Assembly (NCBI RefSeq): GCF_023195925.1
Contig: NZ_JALPRE010000022.1
Coordinates: forward strand, 1 to 64,000
Source of the DNA: Aquimarina acroporae
Lineage (GTDB): Bacteria; Bacteroidota; Bacteroidia; Flavobacteriales; Flavobacteriaceae
Direction: 5' to 3'
DNA length: 64,000 nt
Numbering within the stretch: position 1 is the first letter of the stretch; the number at the start of each line of letters is the position of its first letter. Positions 5,544 to 22,786 of the stretch are shown here, in pieces. The notes beneath the pieces were generated by a model that saw only the letters and a program-made list of their open reading frames with translations, did no database searches and was not told the DNA's origin. Made by a program: the position numbers and the translations under genes.

Positions 5544-7304
5544 TTATCTTCGATCACTACGTTTTCTTCTATCTCTTCTTGAGTTTCCACCTTGATCTCT
5601 TCCCTCACCACGATCAAAACGTTTTTTTCCTTTAGGTTTAAAACCGTCACTTCTCCTTTTTCCTTTGAAACCGTTACCATCGCGGCGGCGTTTACCTCCT
5701 CCTTTGCGACCAGATCCTTTAGAGATTTCAACATTCACCTTTCTGCCTTCCATTCTGAAATCTTCAAAAATAGAAAGTACACGTTCTTGATATTCTGAAG
5801 TAGTATTAAAAAATGAAAAGCTTTCCTTTACGTCGACACGACTTAAAGAGTCACTTCCTAATTCTAATACTTCTTTAAGGAAATCTTTAAGGGTCATCCA
5901 GTCGAACCCATCTTTTTCACCAACATTTATGAAATAACGGGTAGTACCATCTCCACCAGAACTTCTTTCATTATCTCTTCCCGTTACATTAAGATCTCTG
6001 GCATTTTTGTAATAGTTATGAAAGCGGGAAAATTCTACTGAGAAAAATTTCTTAATTAATTCTTCTTTACTAAAACCGTCTAACACCTCATGAATGGAAG
6101 GTAGATAACTATCAATTTCATGATTAATTTCTGCTTTTCCGATATCACTGGCAAGGTGAAAAAGCTGTACTTGACAAATTTCTTCACCGCTTGGTATTTC
6201 TTTCTTCTCAAATTCTTTTTTGATAATACGCTCTACCGACTTGATCTTTCTTATTTCACTTTTAGAAACGATTACCATAGAAACTCCACTTTTTCCAGCT
6301 CTACCAGTTCTTCCGCTTCGGTGTGTATAGGTTTCTATTTCATCGGGTAATTGATAATTAATAACGTGAGTCACATCATCTACATCGATTCCTCTTGCCG
6401 CTACATCGGTGGCAACCAGCATTTGTATTTGTCGATTTCTGAAGCTCTTCATTACCAAATCTCTTTGGTTTTGGCTTAAATCACCATGTAATGCCGCTGC
6501 GTTATAACCATCTCCAATAAGATTTTCTGCTACCTTTTGAGTGTCTCTTTTTGTTCTACAAAAAATCACCGAGAAGATATCAGGGTTTGCATCTGCCAGT
6601 CTTTTAAGAGCAGCATATCTGTCACGTGAGTTTACAACATAGTATTCATGCGACACATTTTTTGATCCGGTATTTTTATGACCTACCGTAATTTCTTTTG
6701 GGCTATCCATAAATCGCTTAGCGATGGTTGCGACCTCTTTAGGCATAGTTGCAGAAAACAGCCAAGTGTTTTTATGCTCTGGAGTATGAGATAGTATAGC
6801 ATTTATATCTTCATAGAATCCCATATTTAGCATTTCGTCTGCCTCATCTAATACACAAAACCCGATATCGCTAATGTTCACCATTTTGCGATTGATCATA
6901 TCTTGCATACGACCAGGTGTTGCTACAATAATTTGGGCACCACGTTTAATCTGTTTTGCTTGCTCTGTAATACTAGCTCCACCATAAATGGCTACCACGT
7001 TTAGGCCAGAAATATATTTAGAGTAGTTTTTAAGTTCATTGGTAATTTGTAGACATAATTCTCGAGTAGGAGAAAGAATTAACCCCTGGGTAATTCTACT
7101 TTTTACATCAATCTTTTCGATTAATGGAAATCCAAAAGCTGCTGTTTTTCCGGTACCCGTTTGGGCCAGAGCAACTATATCTGTATCTTCATTAAGTAAG
7201 ATAGGAATTGCTTTTTCTTGTACCTCACTTGGGGTTTCAAACCCCATATCATTCACCGCCTTTAGAATTTCATCACCGAGGCCTAAAGCTTCAAATTTGT
7301 TCAT
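5544..7304 (-). CDS. DEAD-box RNA helicase with DbpA-like RNA-binding domain
   Basis: A 586-residue ATP-dependent RNA helicase. Visible motifs are the Q motif region (FEALGLGDEILKAVNDMGFETPSEVQ), motif I AQTGTGKTAA, Ia PTRELCLQ, II DEAD, III SAT, V DVAARGIDVDDV and VI HRSGRTGRAG. After the two RecA lobes (about 1-375) comes a linker, then a DbpA-type RNA-binding domain near residues 460-540 (TRYFINVGEKDGFDW...), and a very basic G/R/K-rich tail. Family members (DeaD/CshA/DbpA) act in ribosome assembly, RNA decay or cold adaptation. The DbpA-like domain suggests structured rRNA as substrate, by inference. It is a single leftward gene with its own promoter. Confidence 0.93.
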   Translation of the reverse strand: MNKFEALGLGDEILKAVNDMGFETPSEVQEKAIPILLNEDTDIVALAQTGTGKTAAFGFPLIEKIDVKSRITQGLILSPTRELCLQITNELKNYSKYISGLNVVAIYGGASITEQAKQIKRGAQIIVATPGRMQDMINRKMVNISDIGFCVLDEADEMLNMGFYEDINAILSHTPEHKNTWLFSATMPKEVATIAKRFMDSPKEITVGHKNTGSKNVSHEYYVVNSRDRYAALKRLADANPDIFSVIFCRTKRDTQKVAENLIGDGYNAAALHGDLSQNQRDLVMKSFRNRQIQMLVATDVAARGIDVDDVTHVINYQLPDEIETYTHRSGRTGRAGKSGVSMVIVSKSEIRKIKSVERIIKKEFEKKEIPSGEEICQVQLFHLASDIGKAEINHEIDSYLPSIHEVLDGFSKEELIKKFFSVEFSRFHNYYKNARDLNVTGRDNERSSGGDGTTRYFINVGEKDGFDWMTLKDFLKEVLELGSDSLSRVDVKESFSFFNTTSEYQERVLSIFEDFRMEGRKVNVEISKGSGRKGGGKRRRDGNGFKGKRRSDGFKPKGKKRFDRGEGRDQGGNSRRDRRKRSDRR

Positions 7305-7321
7305 ATAAATAAAATAAGCCG

Positions 7322-7353
7322 CAAAGGTACGGTTTATTATTGGTCTATAACAA
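7322..7353 (-). promoter_or_regulatory. Promoter of the DEAD-box helicase gene
   Basis: On the minus strand, TACCTTTG (7322-7329) is a perfect -7 box and TTG (7351-7353) lies 21 nt upstream as the -33 element. The start codon is 18 nt downstream of the -7 box. Confidence 0.6.
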
Positions 7354-7437
7354 TAACGTGATATATATTATAGTGTTGCAACAAACTTAATTTATCTGTA
7401 GATTTTTAATTAGGAAGATTTACCTTTTTGTAGGAAC

Positions 7438-8487
7438 TTATTCAACCACTTCAATCTCAAAAAGTTTACCCCAATACTTACCAGTTACAAATAATTGTTG
7501 GGAGTCTTTCTTATAAGCGATACCATTAAGTACATCGAGTTCAGGATGTTGCTTTACTTTGTTTCGAAGTCCAGAAAGATTAATAACACCTTCTAAAGCA
7601 CCGTTTGATGGATTAATAATGGCAATACCATCTTTTTGCCAGGTATTTGCATATATTTTACCATTAACCCATTCTAACTCATTAAATTTTGATTTTACAC
7701 CTTTATTAGTGGTAACTTCAATGTACCCTTTTTCAGCAAGAGTTTCTGCATCTAGGATCCAAATCTTCTCGGTTCCATCACTTTTATAAATATGCTTTCC
7801 ATCATTACATAATCCCCATCCTTGTTTGCTATCGTTGTAAGCAAAATTTCCTGTTTTCTCCATGCTTTCAAGGTCATAGATAAAACCTTCTTTTGCTTGC
7901 CAGGTAAGTTGAAAAATTTTGTTGTTCATTATAGTGATGCCTTCAGCGAAGTATTTTTGAGGAACTTCTTTCTTAATAATCACTTCACCGCTTTTATAAT
8001 CTACTTTTCTTAATGAGGATTGTCCTTTTTTTCCTGTGCTTTCGTATAAAGTATCTCCGACAAATTCTAAACCTTGAGTAAAGGCACCTTCATCATGTGG
8101 ATAATCTGCTACTATTTTATAGGTATACAGTTTTGGTGATTTATTATTTAAAAGCGTAATTTTCTTGGTAATTGTATCTACATTTCCGTCATAGAACACC
8201 AGAGCTTTTAAAACATTATGTCCTAATTTTTCGGTATCTATTTTTTCTTCGAAGCTAAAATTCGTTCCTGAAGTTGTTTTTTCTTCATTTAAGATGTAAG
8301 AAACAGAGTCGATATTGATGTTTTCGTTGTTTTTTATGCTTGCTTTTATGGTTTCTCCTAGCTTAAAAATTCTCTGATTGTTCTCTGTTTCTATCGAAAA
8401 ATATTTTTTTTTCTTTTCTTGATTACTTCCACAAGAAAAAAATAAAATGCTTAATGTAGTGATGACGAAGAGGTTACGAGTATTCAT
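7438..8487 (-). CDS. Glutaminyl-peptide cyclotransferase-like lipoprotein
   Basis: About 349 residues. The start chosen (MNTRNLFVITTLSILFFSCGS) gives a lipoprotein signal with lipobox FFSC; an ATG eight codons upstream would add residues with no clear role. After a beta-rich N-terminal part (about 25-110) comes the glutamine cyclotransferase five-bladed propeller, recognisable from PHDEGAFTQGLEFVGDTLYESTG, FAEGITIMNNKIFQLTWQ, GWGLCNDGKHIYKSDGT and FNELEWVNGKIYANTW. The family (plant and bacterial type QC) converts N-terminal glutamine of peptides to pyroglutamate. Here it is predicted to be tethered to a membrane on the cell surface or in the periplasm. The family call is firm; the in vivo substrates are unknown. 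Confidence 0.88.
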   Translation of the reverse strand: MNTRNLFVITTLSILFFSCGSNQEKKKKYFSIETENNQRIFKLGETIKASIKNNENINIDSVSYILNEEKTTSGTNFSFEEKIDTEKLGHNVLKALVFYDGNVDTITKKITLLNNKSPKLYTYKIVADYPHDEGAFTQGLEFVGDTLYESTGKKGQSSLRKVDYKSGEVIIKKEVPQKYFAEGITIMNNKIFQLTWQAKEGFIYDLESMEKTGNFAYNDSKQGWGLCNDGKHIYKSDGTEKIWILDAETLAEKGYIEVTTNKGVKSKFNELEWVNGKIYANTWQKDGIAIINPSNGALEGVINLSGLRNKVKQHPELDVLNGIAYKKDSQQLFVTGKYWGKLFEIEVVE

Positions 8488-13859: not shown

Positions 13860-14438
13860 TTGAAATCAATAACTAGCGACCAACTTATCATAGAACAAAT
13901 CAGGAACAAAAACGAGAAAGTTTTTGAATCTGTTTTTAAAGAGTACTTCAAAGTACTTACGATACATGCAAAAAAGTATGTGTTGGATCTTGATATTGCG
14001 AAAGATATAACCCAGGAAACTTTTGTTAAACTTTACGAAAAAAGAGAAGAGTTGGTTATTCATACTTCTCTCAAGTCCTTTTTATATACTGCGGTTAGAA
14101 ATAGATGCTTAGATTACATTAAGTTGAATAAAATCAGGCAGAATCACAAAGATGCTATCGCTTACCAATCTGCTACAAACTCTGAAGAGGAGGAAGAAGA
14201 TAAAGAGATACGAATAACCGAATTGAAACAGAAAATTCATAAGGTTATACAAACACTACCTTCTCAAAATCAAAAAATTTTTATGTTAAGTAGATTCGAA
14301 GGAAAAACGAATCAGGAGATTGCAGATGAACTTAACATAAGTAAACGAACTGTAGAAACGCATATAAGCAACGCTCTTAAAAAGATTAGAGTTTCTGTTG
14401 CTATTGCACTATTACTTCTATTTTTGAGTTTTTTGTAA
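13860..14438 (+). CDS. ECF RNA polymerase sigma factor (FecI-like, Bacteroidetes type)
   Basis: A 192-residue ECF sigma factor. Region 2 spans about residues 22-90 (VFESVFKEYFKVLTIHAKKYV...DITQETFVKLYEKRE) and region 4 about 125-180 (LPSQNQKIFMLSRFEGKTNQEIADELNISKRTVETHISNALKKI). The start is TTG; no in-frame ATG exists before region 4, so TTG is needed for a complete protein. The C-terminus ends in a short hydrophobic tail (VAIALLLLFLSFL). It heads a cluster with two anti-sigma/TonB-receptor modules, so it probably directs transcription of both from the shared motif at 14466 and 18035. It is the only sigma gene in the cluster. Confidence 0.9.
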   Translation: MKSITSDQLIIEQIRNKNEKVFESVFKEYFKVLTIHAKKYVLDLDIAKDITQETFVKLYEKREELVIHTSLKSFLYTAVRNRCLDYIKLNKIRQNHKDAIAYQSATNSEEEEEDKEIRITELKQKIHKVIQTLPSQNQKIFMLSRFEGKTNQEIADELNISKRTVETHISNALKKIRVSVAIALLLLFLSFL

Positions 14439-14465
14439 TTTTTTCAAAAATTTTCTTGCTACAAT

Positions 14466-14494
14466 TTACGTGTACCTTATTTTATGTTCGTCAT
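14466..14494 (+). promoter_or_regulatory. Candidate ECF promoter TTACGTGT-N13-TTCGTCAT, copy 1
   Basis: TTACGTGT (14466-14473), 13 nt, then TTCGTCAT (14487-14494). The identical two-block motif with identical spacing occurs at 18035-18063 before the second anti-sigma gene. The CGTC core is typical of ECF -10 elements. It lies between the sigma gene and the short anti-sigma gene. Confidence 0.6.
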
Positions 14495-14511
14495 CCCTAT
14501 GAATTAACCAC

Positions 14512-14534
14512 AGGGTGTCTCAACAAGACACTCT
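14512..14534 (+). promoter_or_regulatory. Hairpin in the leader of the mini anti-sigma gene
   Basis: AGGGTGTCT (14512-14520) and AGACACTCT (14526-14534) pair over 9 bp with one G-U around a CAACA loop, ending 16 nt before the ATG at 14551. No T-run follows, so it is not a standard terminator. Confidence 0.4.
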
Positions 14535-14550
14535 CCAAAAAAGCATAGGT

Positions 14551-14721
14551 ATGAACATGTACAACCAATCCAATTTAGAGTATTCATTAATTAAGTATTT
14601 TTCTGGAAAAGCTACACCTGAAGAAGAGGTTTTTGTAGAGAAATGGGTGTCTCAGAGTAGTGATAACACTTCTTACTACCAGCGATTTCAACGTTTATGG
14701 GCACAGCGAATCATTCTGTAG
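14551..14721 (+). CDS. Truncated FecR-like anti-sigma factor (N-terminal domain only)
   Basis: About 56 residues from the ATG at 14551 (a GTG at 14515 lies inside a hairpin and is less likely). The sequence NLEYSLIKYFSGKATPEEEVFVEKWVSQSS...YYQRFQRLWAQ matches the N-terminal cytoplasmic sigma-binding domain of FecR proteins; compare ILTRYLEDDVELEEQKFVKDWISES at 18243. It then stops after RIIL. The membrane helix, the periplasmic FecR domain and the C-terminal domain are all absent, and the 59 bp to the next gene hold no remnant in another frame. In E. coli, free N-terminal FecR fragments activate FecI without inducer, so this may be a constitutive sigma activator, or a decaying gene. Start codon and function are inferred. 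Confidence 0.65.
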   Translation: MNMYNQSNLEYSLIKYFSGKATPEEEVFVEKWVSQSSDNTSYYQRFQRLWAQRIIL

Positions 14722-14780
14722 TCTTTTACTTGCTAAAGTAAAATCAAACATTTTTTCTTTTCTCTAAAATCATTTACACC

Positions 14781-17120
14781 TTGAAAACAAAACAAGTATT
14801 ACTTGCCTTTTGGGTATTAGCTATAAGTATTACCAATGTCTTTGGTCAATCGTCTAACCAAAAAACCAAAAAACACACCATTAGCGGATATGTAAAAGAA
14901 GTTGGAAGCCAGGAATACCTGCCAATGGTATCTATATATGTACCAGCGAGCAAAGTGGGAACGACTACAAATGATTATGGTTTTTTTTCTCTCACCATTC
15001 CAGAAGGAACACATGAATTGATAGTATCTTTTATTGGTTATGGTACTATTCGAAAAACTGTAGAACTTACAGATGATGTGGAGCTTAGTTTTGAAATGGA
15101 ATTATCTGCAGAAAGCTTAGATGAAGTAATTATTGAGGCAGACCGGGGAGTTAATGAAAGCCAGGTGACTCAAATGAGTGTTGTGACTATTAAACCTTCT
15201 GAAATAGAAGATATACCAGCAATCCTGGGAGAAAAAGATGTAATCAAAGCGTTGCAATTAATGCCAGGAATACAAAGAGGAAATGAAGGAAGTGCAGGTT
15301 TCTTTGTAAGAGGAGGGACTCCAGATCAGAATTTAATTATTCTGGATGAAGCTCCAGTGTATAATTCTAATCACCTTTTCGGAATATTTTCGGTGTTTAA
15401 CGGGGATGCCATAAAATCTATAGAGACTTACAAAGGAGGTTTTCCGGCAAGGTTTGGTGGTAGGTTGTCATCAGTACTAAAAATAGATACCAAAAATGGA
15501 AATAAAGAAAGACTAAGCGGAAAAGTAAATGTAGGTCTTATTTCGTCATCATTAGTTCTAGAAGGACCAATAAAAAAAGGAAAAACTTCGTTTATTTTTA
15601 GTGGTCGTAGAACATACGCCGATTTATTGTCTAAACCATTTCAATCTTCAGATTTTAAAGCAGGATATTTTTTTACAGATCTTAATTTTAAGATTCATCA
15701 TGTCTTTAATGAAAAGAATAAATTGTATTGGAGTAACTATTTTGGACAAGATAGATTTACAGGAGATGAAAGAGACGATGGGGAACGGTTTAAAACTCGA
15801 TTATTTTGGGGTAATATAACATCTACTTTACGATGGAATCGTCAATTTAGCGATAAATTCTTTTCGAATACATCACTAATTTTTAGTAATTACAATTTTG
15901 GATTAAAATATGACGAAAAACTTAATGATAGTCGCTTCTTATTCAAGTTAAGCTCAGGAATAAATGATTATGGAATTAAAGCAGACTTCGATTACTATCC
16001 TAATCCTAATCATTCTATTCGTTTTGGGGTCGCTTCTACGTACCACAGTTTTATACCAAAACAATCAAAAATAAGAGAAACTGGAGAAGATAATAATGAC
16101 GTAAAACAAAAAATAGAATCTCTAGAAAGTGCAATTTATGCTGAGGATAACTGGAAAATAACAGAGAATTTAAGTTTATCTCCTGGTGCTAGAGTTACCC
16201 ATTTTCAATTTAAATCTAAAAGCTATCTCAATTTTGAACCCAGGGCAACTATTGCTTGGAATATAAAGCCGGATCTTGCTTTGAAGGCTTCTTATTCAAA
16301 AATGAATCAATACATACACTTGTTATCTAATTCGGGGATAGGATTACCAACAGATTTATGGGTGTCTTCAACAGATAATCTTAAGCCACAAGTGTCGCAG
16401 CAATATGCTTTGGGCTTAGCAAAAGATTTTTTGGATGAAGGATATGCAATTACGCTGGAAGGATACTATAAAAAGATGGATGATGTGATCTCTTATAAAG
16501 AGGGTGCTTCTTTTTTGTTGCTTGAAGACCTGGAGACGGGTAGAGAAATAGATTGGGAGGAAAATATCACAACAGGTGAGGGATGGGCCTACGGAGCCGA
16601 ATTATTATTAAGAAAGAAAACAGGAAAATTAACAGGTTGGCTGGGGTATACGCTGTCATGGTCAGAGCGACAGTTTGACGAACTTAATCAAGGAAGAAAG
16701 TTTTTTGCAAGATATGACCGTAGACACGATTTGTCATTAGTAGGTATTTATAAACCTCATGAAAGAATTACGCTTTCAGGTTCCTGGGTGTTTTCATCGG
16801 GAAACAACTTTAACTTACCCGATAGAGAAGCGATATCTAATACAGCAAACTTTCCAATTCCTATTAGTTTGTTTAATGGGGGTACGACGCCATTTAGTAC
16901 AGAACGCAATAATTTTAGAGGAGAAAGTTACCATCGCTTAGATCTTGGGGTACAATTTCATAAAAGGTTTGCTAAACATAGAGAACGAACATGGGGATTT
17001 TCGGTGTATAATATCTACGGCCGTAGAAACCCATTCTACTATTATTTTGATGATGCTGAACTTAAAAAGGTATCGATTTTACAGTTTATTCCATCCATAA
17101 ATTATACCTACAAATTCTAA
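14781..17120 (+). CDS. TonB-dependent receptor (SusC/FecA-like) without STN signalling domain
   Basis: A 779-residue outer-membrane receptor with a TTG start and signal peptide (MKTKQVLLAFWVLAISITNVFGQ). Directly after it comes the carboxypeptidase-regulatory-like domain (HTISGYVKEVGSQEYLPMVSIYV...), then the plug (AILGEKDVIKALQLMPGIQRGNEGSAGFFVRGGTPDQN...) and a 22-strand-type barrel ending in INYTYKF. TonB-dependent receptors import large or scarce substrates using TonB energy. The paralogue at 19269 is closely similar but carries an extra STN domain of about 85 residues, which this protein lacks. The neighbour order (anti-sigma, receptor, DUF4249 lipoprotein) is repeated downstream. The substrate is unknown. 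Confidence 0.92.
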   Translation: MKTKQVLLAFWVLAISITNVFGQSSNQKTKKHTISGYVKEVGSQEYLPMVSIYVPASKVGTTTNDYGFFSLTIPEGTHELIVSFIGYGTIRKTVELTDDVELSFEMELSAESLDEVIIEADRGVNESQVTQMSVVTIKPSEIEDIPAILGEKDVIKALQLMPGIQRGNEGSAGFFVRGGTPDQNLIILDEAPVYNSNHLFGIFSVFNGDAIKSIETYKGGFPARFGGRLSSVLKIDTKNGNKERLSGKVNVGLISSSLVLEGPIKKGKTSFIFSGRRTYADLLSKPFQSSDFKAGYFFTDLNFKIHHVFNEKNKLYWSNYFGQDRFTGDERDDGERFKTRLFWGNITSTLRWNRQFSDKFFSNTSLIFSNYNFGLKYDEKLNDSRFLFKLSSGINDYGIKADFDYYPNPNHSIRFGVASTYHSFIPKQSKIRETGEDNNDVKQKIESLESAIYAEDNWKITENLSLSPGARVTHFQFKSKSYLNFEPRATIAWNIKPDLALKASYSKMNQYIHLLSNSGIGLPTDLWVSSTDNLKPQVSQQYALGLAKDFLDEGYAITLEGYYKKMDDVISYKEGASFLLLEDLETGREIDWEENITTGEGWAYGAELLLRKKTGKLTGWLGYTLSWSERQFDELNQGRKFFARYDRRHDLSLVGIYKPHERITLSGSWVFSSGNNFNLPDREAISNTANFPIPISLFNGGTTPFSTERNNFRGESYHRLDLGVQFHKRFAKHRERTWGFSVYNIYGRRNPFYYYFDDAELKKVSILQFIPSINYTYKF

Positions 17121-17158
17121 AGCTGATTATGCACATTAATTCTTTAAAAACAAAATTC

Positions 17159-18019
17159 ATGAAATACATACAATATAGCATTATCATAATTTTAAGCGCG
17201 GTACTCCTAAGTTGCGAAACTAGTGTAGATGCAAGTGACCTCTTAGCAAAAGAACAGTTGGTAGTTATTAATGGGTATTTATCTCCGCAGGATACTACCT
17301 TGAAAGTACAGGTGTCAAAATCGAGATCTAGAGCGGCTTCGGGGTCGCAAAATAATGAAAATTTGATAGTTAATGATGCTTTGGTAGTATTATCAGATGA
17401 AGAAGGAAATGAAGTTACGCTTACCTATTCTAATATTACCTTTAGTTATGAAGCTGCGGCTTCAGAATTAGTTATTACTCCTGGGAGGCAGTATTTTTTG
17501 ACCGCTGTTGTAGAAGGAAAAGAATACAGGGCGTCATGCACTATTCCTGCTGAACAGGCCCAAAATGTAAGAGCCGAAATTTTGGATAGAGAAGATGATG
17601 AATTGGGAAATCAATCTTTAAAAGTAACTGTTGATGACATAAGAGATAAAAGAAATTTCTATATAGTAGGGGCGGCTGTGAACTGGAGGTCGACCGATAT
17701 TGGATCAGGGGAGCCACAGGTAAGTAGAGTAGATTTTGAATTTGAACAATTTACCACCGACAGTAACAGAGAAAATGCATTAATTACCGTAGACGGGTTC
17801 TTTTTTATCGATACGTTTTCAGAAACCTTATCGGCAAATATTCAAGTGGCCAATGCAGAACAGATATTGTATGATGCCCTTAGAGCTACTTTTTTGAACG
17901 ATTATAACGAAGATGATCCTTTTTTTGAACCAGTTATTGCCCCAACTAATATACAAGGAGAAAACGGTTTTGGCGTTTTTGCAGGGTATCAGTTATTAGA
18001 GGAAGAAATAATTTTTTAA
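17159..18019 (+). CDS. DUF4249 family lipoprotein, receptor partner 1
   Basis: A 286-residue lipoprotein. The ATG at 17159 gives a good signal (MKYIQYSIIIILSAVLLSCE); an ATG 30 bp upstream also exists but adds a charged leader. The body is beta-rich and matches DUF4249: QLVVINGYLSPQDTTLKVQVSKS, a central domain with NFYIVGAAV, and a C-terminal DDPFFEPVIAPTNIQGENGFGVFAGYQ. DUF4249 proteins are almost always encoded beside TonB-dependent receptors in Bacteroidetes and are thought to be surface partners, perhaps in substrate capture. The same C-terminal DDPFF-P-I-PTNI pattern occurs in the second copy at 21923, so the pair arose by module duplication. Confidence 0.85.
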   Translation: MKYIQYSIIIILSAVLLSCETSVDASDLLAKEQLVVINGYLSPQDTTLKVQVSKSRSRAASGSQNNENLIVNDALVVLSDEEGNEVTLTYSNITFSYEAAASELVITPGRQYFLTAVVEGKEYRASCTIPAEQAQNVRAEILDREDDELGNQSLKVTVDDIRDKRNFYIVGAAVNWRSTDIGSGEPQVSRVDFEFEQFTTDSNRENALITVDGFFFIDTFSETLSANIQVANAEQILYDALRATFLNDYNEDDPFFEPVIAPTNIQGENGFGVFAGYQLLEEEIIF

Positions 18020-18242: not shown

Positions 18243-19232
18243 ATGGCAATTAAGAACGAAGATCAAATATTAGCAATTTTGACCCGTTATCTGGAGGACG
18301 ACGTGGAGCTGGAAGAGCAGAAGTTTGTGAAAGACTGGATTTCCGAATCTACCGCGAATAAGAATTATTTTGAAGAGGTTAAATCAATCTGGAAGGCCTC
18401 AGAAGACATAGCCGATTTTGATAAGATAGATGTAGAAGAAGAGTGGGGTAGTTTCAAGCAAACAATTTCGGTTCAAGAAAACTCTGCAAAGAATAAAGTT
18501 TCAAATACAGTTTTTTATAGAATAGCTGCTTCAGTAGCGATAATTATCGGTTTGGGATTCTATTTTTTGAATTACTACAATGCTGATGTTACTTTGGTGG
18601 CTGAGGCAGGAAAAGAAAATAGATTCGAACTCCCAGATGCATCTGTTGTTTGGTTGAAAGAAGGAAGCCAATTGACATATGACAAAGGATTTGAAGGAGA
18701 AACAAGAAAAACTCAACTAAATGGGGAAGCATTTTTTGAAGTAACCAAAAATCCTGATAAGCCTTTTATTGTATTAACAAACAATACTGAGACAAAGGTT
18801 TTAGGTACTTCCTTTAATTTAAAAACAAATACTGAAACCAAAGAAACAGAGATTGTTTTAGTAACTGGTAAAGTACAATTCACCGCCGGAGGAAATCAGG
18901 AAATTCTTAGACCTGGTGATAAAGTAACTGCAAAAGCTAATGGTACATTGGCTAAAAAAACAAATGATAATCCCAATTTTATTTCATGGAAATCTAAAGT
19001 GTTGAAGTTTGAAGATACCCTTTTGAGTGAAGTTATTGAGGATATCGAACAATTTTATAATGTTAAACTCGTTATGGAAAACCCACAATTAAGACATTGT
19101 AAACTTACTTCAGTCTTTGAAAATGAATCATTAGAAGATGTTTTGGAAACTCTCACCGTATTATTCGATATTACTCACCAAAAAGATGAGGCAAATCGAA
19201 TTATTATTAAGGGAGGAGATTGTAATTCATAA
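18243..19232 (+). CDS. FecR-like anti-sigma factor, full length
   Basis: A 329-residue single-pass membrane protein. The N-terminal cytoplasmic sigma-binding domain is residues 1-80 (ILTRYLEDDVELEEQKFVKDWISES). One membrane helix follows near 93-112 (IAASVAIIIGLGFYFLNYY), then the periplasmic FecR domain (LVAEAGKENRFELPDASVVWLKEGSQLTYDKGF...GEAFFEV) and a C-terminal DUF4974-type domain (LLSEVIEDIEQFYNVKLVMENPQLRHCKLTSVFENESLEDVLETL). It holds an ECF sigma factor inactive, or co-activates it, until the receptor's STN domain signals. No sigma gene lies directly upstream, so the partner is presumably the one at 13860. Confidence 0.9.
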   Translation: MAIKNEDQILAILTRYLEDDVELEEQKFVKDWISESTANKNYFEEVKSIWKASEDIADFDKIDVEEEWGSFKQTISVQENSAKNKVSNTVFYRIAASVAIIIGLGFYFLNYYNADVTLVAEAGKENRFELPDASVVWLKEGSQLTYDKGFEGETRKTQLNGEAFFEVTKNPDKPFIVLTNNTETKVLGTSFNLKTNTETKETEIVLVTGKVQFTAGGNQEILRPGDKVTAKANGTLAKKTNDNPNFISWKSKVLKFEDTLLSEVIEDIEQFYNVKLVMENPQLRHCKLTSVFENESLEDVLETLTVLFDITHQKDEANRIIIKGGDCNS

Positions 19233-19268: not shown

Positions 19269-21911
19269 ATGTTTGATTCAATCATAAAGAATAAAGTCAT
19301 AAAAGTAGTTGTGCTACTACTCATCCTAATTTCTACCAAGGGATACGCACAACAAACCATTCTCAATGAAAGAGTCAGTCTAGTAAAAGAAAACACTTCT
19401 ATTGGAGATATTCTCTCCGAGCTAGAAAATAAACTTGGGTTTACCACAAGCTATTCAGGAAATACCATAGACTTATCTCAGAAAAAATCTATTAATAGTA
19501 GTAACCAAACATTAAATGAGATTCTAAGAAATTTATTCCCGTCTAAATTATACCGCTTTAAGGTATTGGGTAAAAAGCTGTTGATTTATAAAAGAGTACA
19601 ACGAGTTACATTAAGCGGTTATACCTTAGAAGAAGGTAGTCAGGAATATTTGAGTAACGTTTCTATATACATCAAAGAGCAAAGTATTGGTGCTGTAAGT
19701 AATGACTATGGATTTTATTCACTTTCGGTACCAGAGGGAACTCATGAAGTATTTATTTCATTTGTAGGGTACAAGACAATCACCAAAACCATAGATTTTA
19801 ATAAAGATATCACACTAAATTTCATTCTGGAACCCGATACTCAATATCTTGATGAGATTGTAATTACATCAGATCGTAGTTCTTTAAAAAGTGAGGTGAC
19901 TCAAATGAGTTCAGAGAGTATTACTCCAGCAATCATTAAAGATACTCCAGCTATTTTTGGAGAAAAAGACGCCGTTAAAACACTACAGTTATTACCTGGA
20001 GTAAAGGCGGGTAATGAAGGTTCTGCAGGTTTTTATGTTAGGGGAGGAACTCCAGATCAAAATTTAATTATTCTTGATGAGTCTATTGTATATAACTCGA
20101 ACCATCTGTTTGGTATTTTTTCCATTTTTAATGGCGATGCAATTAAAACCGTTGAGATGTTCAAGGGTGGTTTTCCTGCTCGATATGGGGGACGTCTATC
20201 TTCGGTAGTAAAAATTGATACCAAAAATGGAAATAAAGAAAAAATAAAAGGAAATGTGAACATTAGCCTTATTTCGTCGTCCTTTATGTTAGAAGGTCCT
20301 CTTAAAAAGGATAAAACCTCTTTTGTTTTGAGTGGAAGAAGAACATATCTTGATTTATTAGTACGACCCTTTTTAGAAAGTAATAACGACTTTAGTTATA
20401 ATTTTAGTGATATCACCACAAAAATTCACCATGTTTTTGACGAGAAAAACAAGCTGTATTGGAGTTTGTATTTTGGAGAAGATAAATACAAGAGAAAAGA
20501 GCGATTCGAAGATGAAGGGGTAAATGATAAAACAGATGAAAGAATACAATGGGGGAATATCACTTCTACATTGCGTTGGAATCATGAGTTTAATAACAAA
20601 TTATTCTCAAATACCTCTTTAATATTTAGTAATTATAAATTTCAAAATGAGCAGCTCGAAAGCAATATTAATAATAGCTCGTTTAATAGTTCAAATTCGG
20701 GGATCGATGATTATGGATTAAAAGTAGATTTTAATTATTATCCAAACCCAAAACACACTTTAAAGTTTGGGATGTTGTCTACCTATCACAATTTTAAACC
20801 CAAAGCCATTACAATTCGGGATAGTGAGGATATTGATATTTCTAATACTCAAAGAATTCGAACGTTTGAAAGTGCTTTGTATGTTGAAGACAATTGGGAG
20901 TTCAATAAGAAATTGAATATAAATCCAGGGTTACGGTTAAGTTATTTTCAGCATAAATCTAAAGTCTATTTTAAACCAGAAATAAGGTTTGCTTTGGCAT
21001 ATCGACTTAAACCCACATTGGCTATAAAAGCATCGTATGCAAAGATGAATCAATATATTCACCGACTCTCAAATAGTGGGTTAGGATTGCCTACAGATTT
21101 ATGGATATCATCTACCGAAGGACTCAAACCACAAGTTTCTGAACAAGTAGCAATAGGGTTAGCCAAAGATTTTGGAGATGATATGTACGAAGCTACGCTT
21201 GAAGCCTATTACAAAAAGATGGATGATATTATAGAGTTTAAAGAAGGCGCTTCGTTTGCGAGTGTTAATGACTTGTCTAATATCACCAGTTCTATACAAA
21301 CTGTAGATTTTGTTAATGGCTTAACAACTGGTGAGGGATGGGCCTATGGATCAGAGTTTCTATTGCGAAAAAAACGAGGAAAGTTTACTGGTTGGTTAGG
21401 GTATACCCTATCATGGTCTGAACGTCAATTTGAAGAGTTAAACCAAGGTCGTAGATTTAGAGATCGCTTCGATAGAAGACATGATATTTCATTATTAGCG
21501 GTGTATAAGTTAGATAGACCTAAAAAAGAAAACAAAAAAACGACGTTGTCTGCAAACTGGGTATTTTCATCAGGAATAAACTTTAATGTTCCTAATACTG
21601 TAGGATTAGATCCTACTACTGATTTTCCTATAAACGATGGGGATTTTCCTGGAGTTTCAGTGTTTAATGAAGAAAAAAATAATTTTAAAGGAGAAGATTT
21701 CCATAGGTTAGTATTGGGAATTCAGTTTCATAAAATAACAAAACGTAAGAGAGAGCGCACCTGGGGTTTTTCTTTTTATAATGTGTATGCCAGAAAGAAT
21801 CCATTCTTTTATCAGGTAAATACAGTCGATTTTGAAACCAATAGGAGAGTATTAAGCAAAGGATATATTTTCCTATTTGTACCATCATTTAATTACAATT
21901 TGAAATTTTAA
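19269..21911 (+). CDS. TonB-dependent receptor with STN signalling domain
   Basis: An 880-residue outer-membrane receptor. Order: signal peptide (to about residue 28), STN domain (about 29-112, VSLVKENTSIGDILSELENKLGFTTSYSG...), carboxypeptidase-regulatory-like domain (VTLSGYTLEEGSQEYLSNVSIYI), plug (AIFGEKDAVKTLQLLPGVKAGNEGSAGFYVRGGTPDQN) and barrel. The STN domain contacts FecR in the periplasm, so this is a transducer-type receptor. It follows the full-length FecR by 36 bp. Long stretches match the receptor at 14781, which indicates tandem duplication with later divergence. Expected regulation: substrate, then STN, then FecR at 18243, then the sigma at 13860. Confidence 0.93.
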   Translation: MFDSIIKNKVIKVVVLLLILISTKGYAQQTILNERVSLVKENTSIGDILSELENKLGFTTSYSGNTIDLSQKKSINSSNQTLNEILRNLFPSKLYRFKVLGKKLLIYKRVQRVTLSGYTLEEGSQEYLSNVSIYIKEQSIGAVSNDYGFYSLSVPEGTHEVFISFVGYKTITKTIDFNKDITLNFILEPDTQYLDEIVITSDRSSLKSEVTQMSSESITPAIIKDTPAIFGEKDAVKTLQLLPGVKAGNEGSAGFYVRGGTPDQNLIILDESIVYNSNHLFGIFSIFNGDAIKTVEMFKGGFPARYGGRLSSVVKIDTKNGNKEKIKGNVNISLISSSFMLEGPLKKDKTSFVLSGRRTYLDLLVRPFLESNNDFSYNFSDITTKIHHVFDEKNKLYWSLYFGEDKYKRKERFEDEGVNDKTDERIQWGNITSTLRWNHEFNNKLFSNTSLIFSNYKFQNEQLESNINNSSFNSSNSGIDDYGLKVDFNYYPNPKHTLKFGMLSTYHNFKPKAITIRDSEDIDISNTQRIRTFESALYVEDNWEFNKKLNINPGLRLSYFQHKSKVYFKPEIRFALAYRLKPTLAIKASYAKMNQYIHRLSNSGLGLPTDLWISSTEGLKPQVSEQVAIGLAKDFGDDMYEATLEAYYKKMDDIIEFKEGASFASVNDLSNITSSIQTVDFVNGLTTGEGWAYGSEFLLRKKRGKFTGWLGYTLSWSERQFEELNQGRRFRDRFDRRHDISLLAVYKLDRPKKENKKTTLSANWVFSSGINFNVPNTVGLDPTTDFPINDGDFPGVSVFNEEKNNFKGEDFHRLVLGIQFHKITKRKRERTWGFSFYNVYARKNPFFYQVNTVDFETNRRVLSKGYIFLFVPSFNYNLKF

Positions 21912-21922
21912 ACAGGATACAA

Positions 21923-22786
21923 ATGAAAAACTATAGTATAATGTTGTTCGCTTTTATTTTACTAGGTTGTACAGAGTTTGTAGATGATCAAATAAACCAA
22001 CCCGAAGGAGAAGAACTTGTACTTATCTATGGATTTATTTCTCCGGAAGAAGAACAAATTAAGATTTCTGTTTCTGAGACCAAGTCGATTTTTGATGAAG
22101 ATGTAGATTTTGTCTTTGGAACCAATGAAGATTTAATTATTGAAGATGCTACCGTGGCCCTAGAAAATGAAGATGGAACATCAGTATCCTTATTATTTGA
22201 TGATACACTTAAACGATATGTAATACAGGCAAGCTCATTTCCTATAGAACCAGGAAACGAATACCGACTAAATGTTATCGCCAAGGGACAAAGTTTTACT
22301 GCTACATGCACTATTCCTGAAGGGAAAGTAGAAGATGTAGTTTCATCTCTTGGTTTTAAGATTGACGAGTTCGGGCAGCGAATAGAAAACTTAAAAGTGC
22401 AGTTTGAAGATATTAGAGGAACCAATAACTTCTATATCGTGGGAGCAAAGTATAAGCCAATCGGAGGTACCGATATAGAAACGAGCAATGCTTTTTTTGG
22501 ACAACAAAGGTTTGTAACCGATGTCACTGGAGACGGTTTTCCTGTAATTTCTGATGGTCTTGTATCTGGCATTTCTGATGGTCTTGAAATTACAGCACAA
22601 GTGGGACATGTGGATGAGCTTATTTATAGAACCCTGTTGGCTAATTTTATTAATCCAAGAAGGTCTGATGACGATCCGTTTTTCAGGCCGATTATACCAC
22701 CTACAAATATAGTAGGAGAAGGGAGCTATGGTGTTTTTGCTGGATTTAGACTTACCGAGAAAACCGAAAATGTTACCCCAGATTAA
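21923..22786 (+). CDS. DUF4249 family lipoprotein, receptor partner 2
   Basis: A 287-residue lipoprotein (MKNYSIMLFAFILLGCTE) 11 bp after the receptor gene and clearly co-transcribed with it. It is the paralogue of the gene at 17159: both have the G(Y/F)(L/I)SP motif near the start, TCTIP at mid-protein, NFYIVGA, and the terminal DDPFF(E/R)P(V/I)I-PTNI plus FAGF. It is probably an outer-membrane partner of the STN-type receptor. Its stop codon overlaps by 4 bp the stop of the facing TetR gene, so there is no room for a terminator between them. Confidence 0.85.
   Translation: MKNYSIMLFAFILLGCTEFVDDQINQPEGEELVLIYGFISPEEEQIKISVSETKSIFDEDVDFVFGTNEDLIIEDATVALENEDGTSVSLLFDDTLKRYVIQASSFPIEPGNEYRLNVIAKGQSFTATCTIPEGKVEDVVSSLGFKIDEFGQRIENLKVQFEDIRGTNNFYIVGAKYKPIGGTDIETSNAFFGQQRFVTDVTGDGFPVISDGLVSGISDGLEITAQVGHVDELIYRTLLANFINPRRSDDDPFFRPIIPPTNIVGEGSYGVFAGFRLTEKTENVTPD

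Follow-up and report, generated by a model that had tools for sequence, protein, structure and literature searches.

A separately encoded FecR N-domain homologue in a two-receptor sigma factor locus of Aquimarina acroporae

Organization of the locus

We analyzed a 64,000-nucleotide stretch of the Aquimarina acroporae genome (contig NZ_JALPRE010000022.1, positions 1 to 64,000; hereafter the window), focusing on a plus-strand locus in which a 56-residue homologue of the FecR N-domain is encoded as a gene of its own beside an intact FecR. The sole sigma gene of the locus (13860-14438) encodes an extracytoplasmic function (ECF) sigma factor of the Bacteroidetes FecI-like family TIGR02985 (164.5 bits, above the curated cut-off of 126.4), which starts with TTG and ends in a hydrophobic tail. 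Its 5' neighbor looks like the gene of an ATP-binding cassette (ABC)-type ATPase. Behind the sigma gene lies a promoter-like motif, TTACGTGT-N13-TTCGTCAT (P1, 14466-14494), whose TTCGTC box ends 58 bases 5' of the ATG of mini-FecR (14551-14721). This gene encodes the 56-residue stand-alone FecR N-domain (the microprotein), with three predicted helices and with neither a membrane helix nor a periplasmic part. It is followed by TonB-dependent receptor 1, which has no STN domain (14781-17120), and by a DUF4249 protein presumed from its position to be the partner of this receptor (17129-18019). The motif recurs as an exact copy (P2, 18035-18063) 5' of the gene for a full-length FecR anti-sigma/sigma regulator (18243-19232), in which the FecR domain (60.6 bits) and FecR_C (50.9 bits) both score above cut-off and the N-domain aligns as well. 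TonB-dependent receptor 2, with an STN-type N-domain (19269-21911), and a second DUF4249 protein, again placed as presumed receptor partner (21923-22786), complete the series.

The locus thus comprises two receptors, one full FecR, one minimal FecR and one sigma factor. The original prediction for this DNA had described a 56-residue FecR N-domain homologue followed by an STN-less TonB receptor, and we found its coordinates and domains to be correct. It had further assumed an intact second module with both of the parts that the first one lacks. A full FecR is indeed present and an STN domain is likely, although FecR_C scores higher on that region; a second complete module is ruled out because the locus has a single sigma gene.

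Two features of the sigma gene deserve mention in their own right. The hydrophobic tail (SVAIALLLLFLSFL in the window) is about 15-20 residues long, and the 17 tails inspected in this sigma group are all hydrophobic; another sigma factor of the same genome (L032) lacks it. In the 14 sigma genes inspected, no in-frame ATG lies close to the start: 12 offer TTG or GTG, and two (L053, L051) have none of the three codons. The missing ATG could throttle sigma synthesis.

The microprotein gene and its relation to FecR

Intact copies of the microprotein were found in 18 genomes, namely in 16 of 66 genomes of the genus (15 at E ≤3.5e-21, G066 at 2e-9) and at two further loci, L055 and L060. There is one copy per genome, and all 18 start with ATG and have exactly 56 codons; an alternative GTG at 14515 would make a protein of 68 residues, but the conserved start is the ATG. 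Identity to the window copy drops as low as 36% with the length unchanged. An alignment of 16 sequences has seven invariant columns, including Trp-32, Asn-39, Leu-49 and Trp-50, and 16 of the 18 copies carry the C-terminal sequence RI(I/V)L. The median pairwise ratio of nonsynonymous to synonymous substitution rates (dN/dS) is 0.14 (77 of 153 pairs, with dS filtered to 0.1-1.6). Its maximum is 0.91, with all values above 0.5 involving the divergent L070 or L168 copies, and one near-identical pair outside the dS filter gives 1.09. The microprotein is therefore encoded by a real, separately maintained gene that is neither an artefact nor decaying, and the sequencing error that the original prediction had allowed for does not account for it.

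Outside Aquimarina, we found no stand-alone copy among the matches listed at E ≤0.001 in samples of the family (397 genomes), order (296) and phylum (395), which overlap and for which scoring covered no more than 16 to 22 first-look candidates per genome. One short open reading frame (ORF) matched in the family sample (L188) and was rejected, as it runs antisense within an unrelated gene. In the phylum sample the microprotein profile matches long ORFs (189-431 residues) in 41 of 394 genomes other than our own, with a best E of 8e-11, and the window copy is the sole short ORF among the matches listed. Most of the matching ORFs inspected in the family sample start like FecR, many lie beside an ECF sigma gene, and a few are unrelated.

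The profile of the microprotein aligns over columns 1-52 with that of FecR N-domains (hhalign probability 98.8, E 7e-17), the sigma-binding itself being a prediction. There is no Pfam match at E ≤1 and no match to an NCBIfam model. The periplasmic FecR and FecR_C domains that characterize the FecR family are missing, and so is its single membrane helix: all 18 copies stop at residue 56, and all three predicted helices belong to the N-domain. AlphaFold2 models these helices with a mean predicted local distance difference test score of 90. In a Foldseek comparison with the PDB, 8 of 11 matches are cytoplasmic domains of anti-sigma factors (MucA, RsiW, PupR); all are insignificant (E 2.4 or worse), and we weighed them for their nature only. 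A sequence search of the PDB with the microprotein profile gave no match at E ≤10.

In an alignment with Escherichia coli FecR that has a one-residue gap upstream, Trp-39 of FecR corresponds to Trp-32 of the microprotein and Leu-56 to Leu-49, with MAFFT and hhalign in agreement. The single E. coli sequence scores an hhalign probability of 25% (E 7.5e-4) against the microprotein profile and an E of 0.1 against Bacteroidetes FecR N-domains. In this alignment (the one of 25% probability) the microprotein ends at about FecR residue 63. E. coli FecR fragments ending at residues 59, 61, 65, 68 and 116 induce FecI without citrate, whereas fragments 1-46 and 1-56 are inactive (PMC9249621). The microprotein thus ends within the range of the FecI-activating fragments and beyond the inactive 1-56.

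In a tree built on 50 columns, a single label change sets the microproteins apart from the N-domains of the FecR proteins at their own loci, weakly supported (79/22; 74% of bootstrap trees). They had been described as the product of a truncation, which does not fit a separately maintained gene that groups, with this weak support, apart from its FecR neighbors. Nor is there a full FecR at the place of the microprotein in the five receptor-1 loci of relatives that have no linked sigma gene, where we found only the 56-residue ORF, a remnant or nothing. Sequence comparison thus identifies the microprotein as a homologue of the sigma-binding domain of FecR and of no other part.

A motif behind the sigma gene and the history of the locus

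Genome-wide, the motif TTACGTGT-N13-TTCGTCAT has exactly two perfect copies, which start at 14466 and 18035. The window has two sites for its core with relaxed spacing, TACGTGT-N12..14-TTCGTC, and 100 shuffles yielded none; the whole-genome count includes the trailing CAT. The core lies right behind the sigma gene in all 18 loci with an orthologous sigma factor, G018 included, and in none of the five receptor-1 loci that lack a linked sigma gene (L047, L061, L062, L064 and L068; Fisher p 3e-5, which ignores shared descent). In Aquimarina sp. RZ0 the motif deviates after TTCGTC. The distance from the end of the box to the ATG of the microprotein is 52-92 bases in the 11 loci measured. In 14 loci scanned, the 110 bases 5' of the sigma gene hold no copy within four substitutions; therefore, the sigma factor is probably not autoregulated through this motif, whereas the microprotein probably lies downstream of the motif. 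An exact second copy within 330 bases 5' of the full fecR is found in this genome only, among 16 fecR loci scanned.

A search of 57 genomes gave 19 matches to the motif against 7 for a reversed control, 14 of the 19 being in the sigma locus. Allowing up to two mismatches, our own genome has 8 sites against 4 for the reversed control, and we thus restricted the count there to the two exact sites. Evidence from unlinked sites is limited to two pairs common to G016 and G076, where the motif precedes matching genes, both for DUF3575-like predicted envelope proteins (one above and one below the Pfam cut-off). In G066 and G072, the sigma operon itself contains a homologue of one of the two genes (55 and 56% identical). 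The orthologue of that gene in our genome (71%; C53:71696-72291; L221, L229; cf. L218, L219) has a two-mismatch motif 31 bases 5' of its ATG; in G016 and G076 the motif before the gene is exact. By its position and distribution, the motif is a candidate promoter of the Bacteroidetes FecI-like sigma factor. As it co-occurs with the sigma gene and sits between it and the microprotein, the latter is probably made when the sigma factor is active, which points to feedback. The constitutive role proposed earlier is thus less likely than sigma-induced expression, at least in typical loci.

The microprotein is intact in 17 of the 18 sigma-bearing loci and in one of the five sigma-less loci (Fisher p 0.0027, again ignoring shared descent). 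This comparison leaves out L065, whose contig ends early, and L066 and L071, which are recorded under another or no genus. In G003, the orthologous sigma was sought beside receptor 1 only, and a second sigma-FecR-receptor locus there (L048) has a sigma factor that is 47% identical. Whole-genome searches of the other four sigma-less genomes gave best matches by E-value of 28 to 37% identity, with 20-31 sigma matches per genome. Among the sigma-less loci, L061 and L064 have no trace of the microprotein, and L047 (E 2e-6) and L068 (domain E 0.03, very weak) have remnants with stops at the expected place, both E-values being computed over 33 frames only. In L068, receptor 1 (5767-8329) also shifts frame near residue 230, by decay or assembly error.

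The two receptors differ at their N termini. In receptor 1 the carboxypeptidase-regulatory-like domain starts at residue 34 with no N-terminal extension, and receptor 2 has about 80 extra residues ahead of this domain. This region matches Pfam STN (PF07660) in all nine orthologues at E ≤1 (best 7e-6), the window copy with an E of 0.012, below the curated cut-off; the FecR_C model outscores STN in eight of the nine (best 3e-9). By its place and length, it is likely an STN domain. Against a locus-specific STN profile that includes the start of the next domain, receptor 1 gives an E of 0.17 in the window and down to 0.006 in orthologues. In a tree of 49 of 51 receptors (one partial and one distant row dropped), receptor 1 falls into a 14-row clade without STN (94/92), to which sigma-less loci also belong, and the 11 rows of receptor 2 form a clade with STN (100/100). 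Receptors without STN are also common elsewhere in the tree. In G020, receptor 2 (L044 2906-6473, minus strand) is in two parts almost 1 kb apart, as if by insertion.

The original prediction held that the microprotein arose by loss of the FecR periplasmic part together with the STN domain of receptor 1, and it suggested looking for the same pair in relatives. The two genes do adjoin in most lineages, but each also occurs alone. G066 (L167) and G072 (L168) have the microprotein and no receptor 1, in the order sigma, lipocalin-like protein, microprotein, further envelope-type genes, full fecR, receptor 2 and DUF4249. In RZ0 (L070) the microprotein lies 128 bases 5' of the full fecR. Conversely, A. 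algicola (L061) and L064 have an STN-less receptor 1 and no microprotein. These arrangements contradict a joint loss. G018 (L051) has sigma, motif, lipocalin-like protein, full fecR (a relative of the FecR at 18243) and receptor 2, and neither microprotein nor receptor 1. A simple history would be that the microprotein arose once in an ancestral sigma-fecR-receptor 2 operon, with receptor 1 now adjoining it in most lineages.

Possible role in feedback and comparison with known systems

From the observed homology, conservation, purifying selection, gene order and motif, we infer that the microprotein is probably a sigma-dependent feedback element, of either sign. By analogy with E. coli FecR, it might bind the linked sigma factor in place of the membrane-bound FecR and keep it active, a version that we favor tentatively and at somewhat under an even chance. 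A signal at receptor 2, the likely STN receptor, would act through the full FecR and free the sigma factor, as is known for FecA-FecR-FecI. The freed sigma would then transcribe from the motif behind its own gene, as the position of the motif and its co-occurrence with sigma suggest. The transcript would hold the microprotein and then receptor 1, with the full FecR and receptor 2 reached by read-through or from P2. Free microprotein may displace membrane-held FecR on the sigma factor, which would stay stable and active without further proteolysis, and the response would be sustained or given memory. Two points tip the balance slightly toward activation: the microprotein matches active FecR fragments in length, and the operon already has its usual brake in the intact FecR. 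A FecR N-domain that has a gene of its own and activates the same sigma factor that transcribes this gene could form a self-sustaining or hysteretic switch, with the intact FecR of the same operon as its reset; this we consider possible, with a little less confidence than activation as such.

Several findings weigh against the proposed role. In A. aggregata (L062) the microprotein is intact with no sigma gene, FecR or motif linked to it, and the best genome-wide sigma match is 31% identical, which speaks against a strictly sigma-bound function. G018 has sigma, motif and FecR and no microprotein; therefore, the system can work without it. The motif of RZ0, G066 and G072 lies farther upstream and not immediately 5' of the microprotein, and the five unlinked motif matches as a class do not exceed the 7 of the reversed control. 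An AlphaFold2 single-chain read-through of sigma and microprotein shows no confident packing (predicted template modeling score 0.39), which says little because the alignment has 24 unpaired rows. Finally, the N-terminal fragments of FpvR (67 residues, PMC9249621) and LIC12756 (PMC13118517) inhibit their own sigma factors.

The last point fits a soluble brake, in which the sigma-induced microprotein silences the sigma factor in the cytoplasm and provides negative feedback or a threshold. The full FecR, also downstream of the same motif, is compatible with such a brake, and Bacillus subtilis CsfB is a precedent for a small sigma-induced anti-sigma factor. As FecR fragments of this length activate in the FecI-FecR system, we regard the brake as tentative too, and nearly as likely as the activator. 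It is unlikely, in our view, that the microprotein merely travels with the operon and works for another sigma factor or another partner. The intact A. aggregata copy, the 20-31 sigma matches in each sigma-less genome searched and the sigma-bearing G018 without a microprotein would all be explained. However, the microprotein is absent or broken in the remaining four of five sigma-less loci (one of the two remnants being very weak), and it lies between sigma and fecR in 17 of 17 loci that have sigma and microprotein. The A. aggregata branch lengths (microprotein 0.49 versus 0.25 in L063, receptor 1 0.086 versus 0.15) moreover suggest relaxed constraint, on 50 columns only.

Far less probable is the earlier proposal that joint loss of the receptor STN and of the periplasmic part of FecR left a constitutive activator. 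Both parts are indeed missing at the window locus, but G066 and G072, L061 and L064 each show one without the other, the 14-row receptor-1 clade is uniformly STN-less with such receptors common elsewhere, and the motif between sigma and microprotein argues against constitutive expression. A chance ORF, sequencing artefact or pseudogene would agree with the short length and the missing Pfam and NCBIfam matches; given 18 exact-length copies and the dN/dS of 0.14, we assign it a negligible probability. A feedback element linked to the sigma factor thus remains our preferred interpretation.

In the literature searched, with most subscription papers outside its coverage, we found no separate conserved gene for a FecR N-domain. 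A functional parallel is CsfB (Gin) of B. subtilis, a small cytoplasmic protein with an unrelated fold that regulates the sigma cascade in which it is itself produced. In FpvR of Pseudomonas and LIC12756 of Leptospira, the cytoplasmic N-domain alone suffices to act on sigma factors, as an inhibitor of FpvI/PvdS (PMC9249621) and of LIC12757 (PMC13118517), respectively; these pieces differ from the microprotein in being laboratory-made and not separate genes. IutY of Pseudomonas putida shows a likewise unusual partition of FecI and FecR domains (PMC9249621) but is a sigma-anti-sigma fusion, the reverse of a split-off N-domain. The sign of the FecR N-domain, activating or inhibiting, thus varies between systems and has so far been studied with cut or truncated proteins. 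A natural free N-domain beside a full FecR and a single sigma factor makes this question testable through one 171-bp gene, and the microprotein may offer a small conserved part for feedback on ECF sigma factors.

The closest likeness is to the E. coli ferric citrate system FecI-FecR-FecA, with which the locus shares an ECF sigma factor, a full FecR and probably an STN receptor. Proteolytically released FecR-type N-domains with pro-sigma activity are established (PMC9249621). The same source bears out the earlier statement that free N-terminal FecR fragments switch on E. coli FecI without inducer; these fragments bind and activate FecI, and the microprotein aligns with about residues 1-63 of FecR. 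In E. coli, the free N-domain results from proteolysis, nonsense mutants or constructs, whereas in Aquimarina a conserved gene is dedicated to it, next to an intact FecR and near a promoter-like motif of the system.

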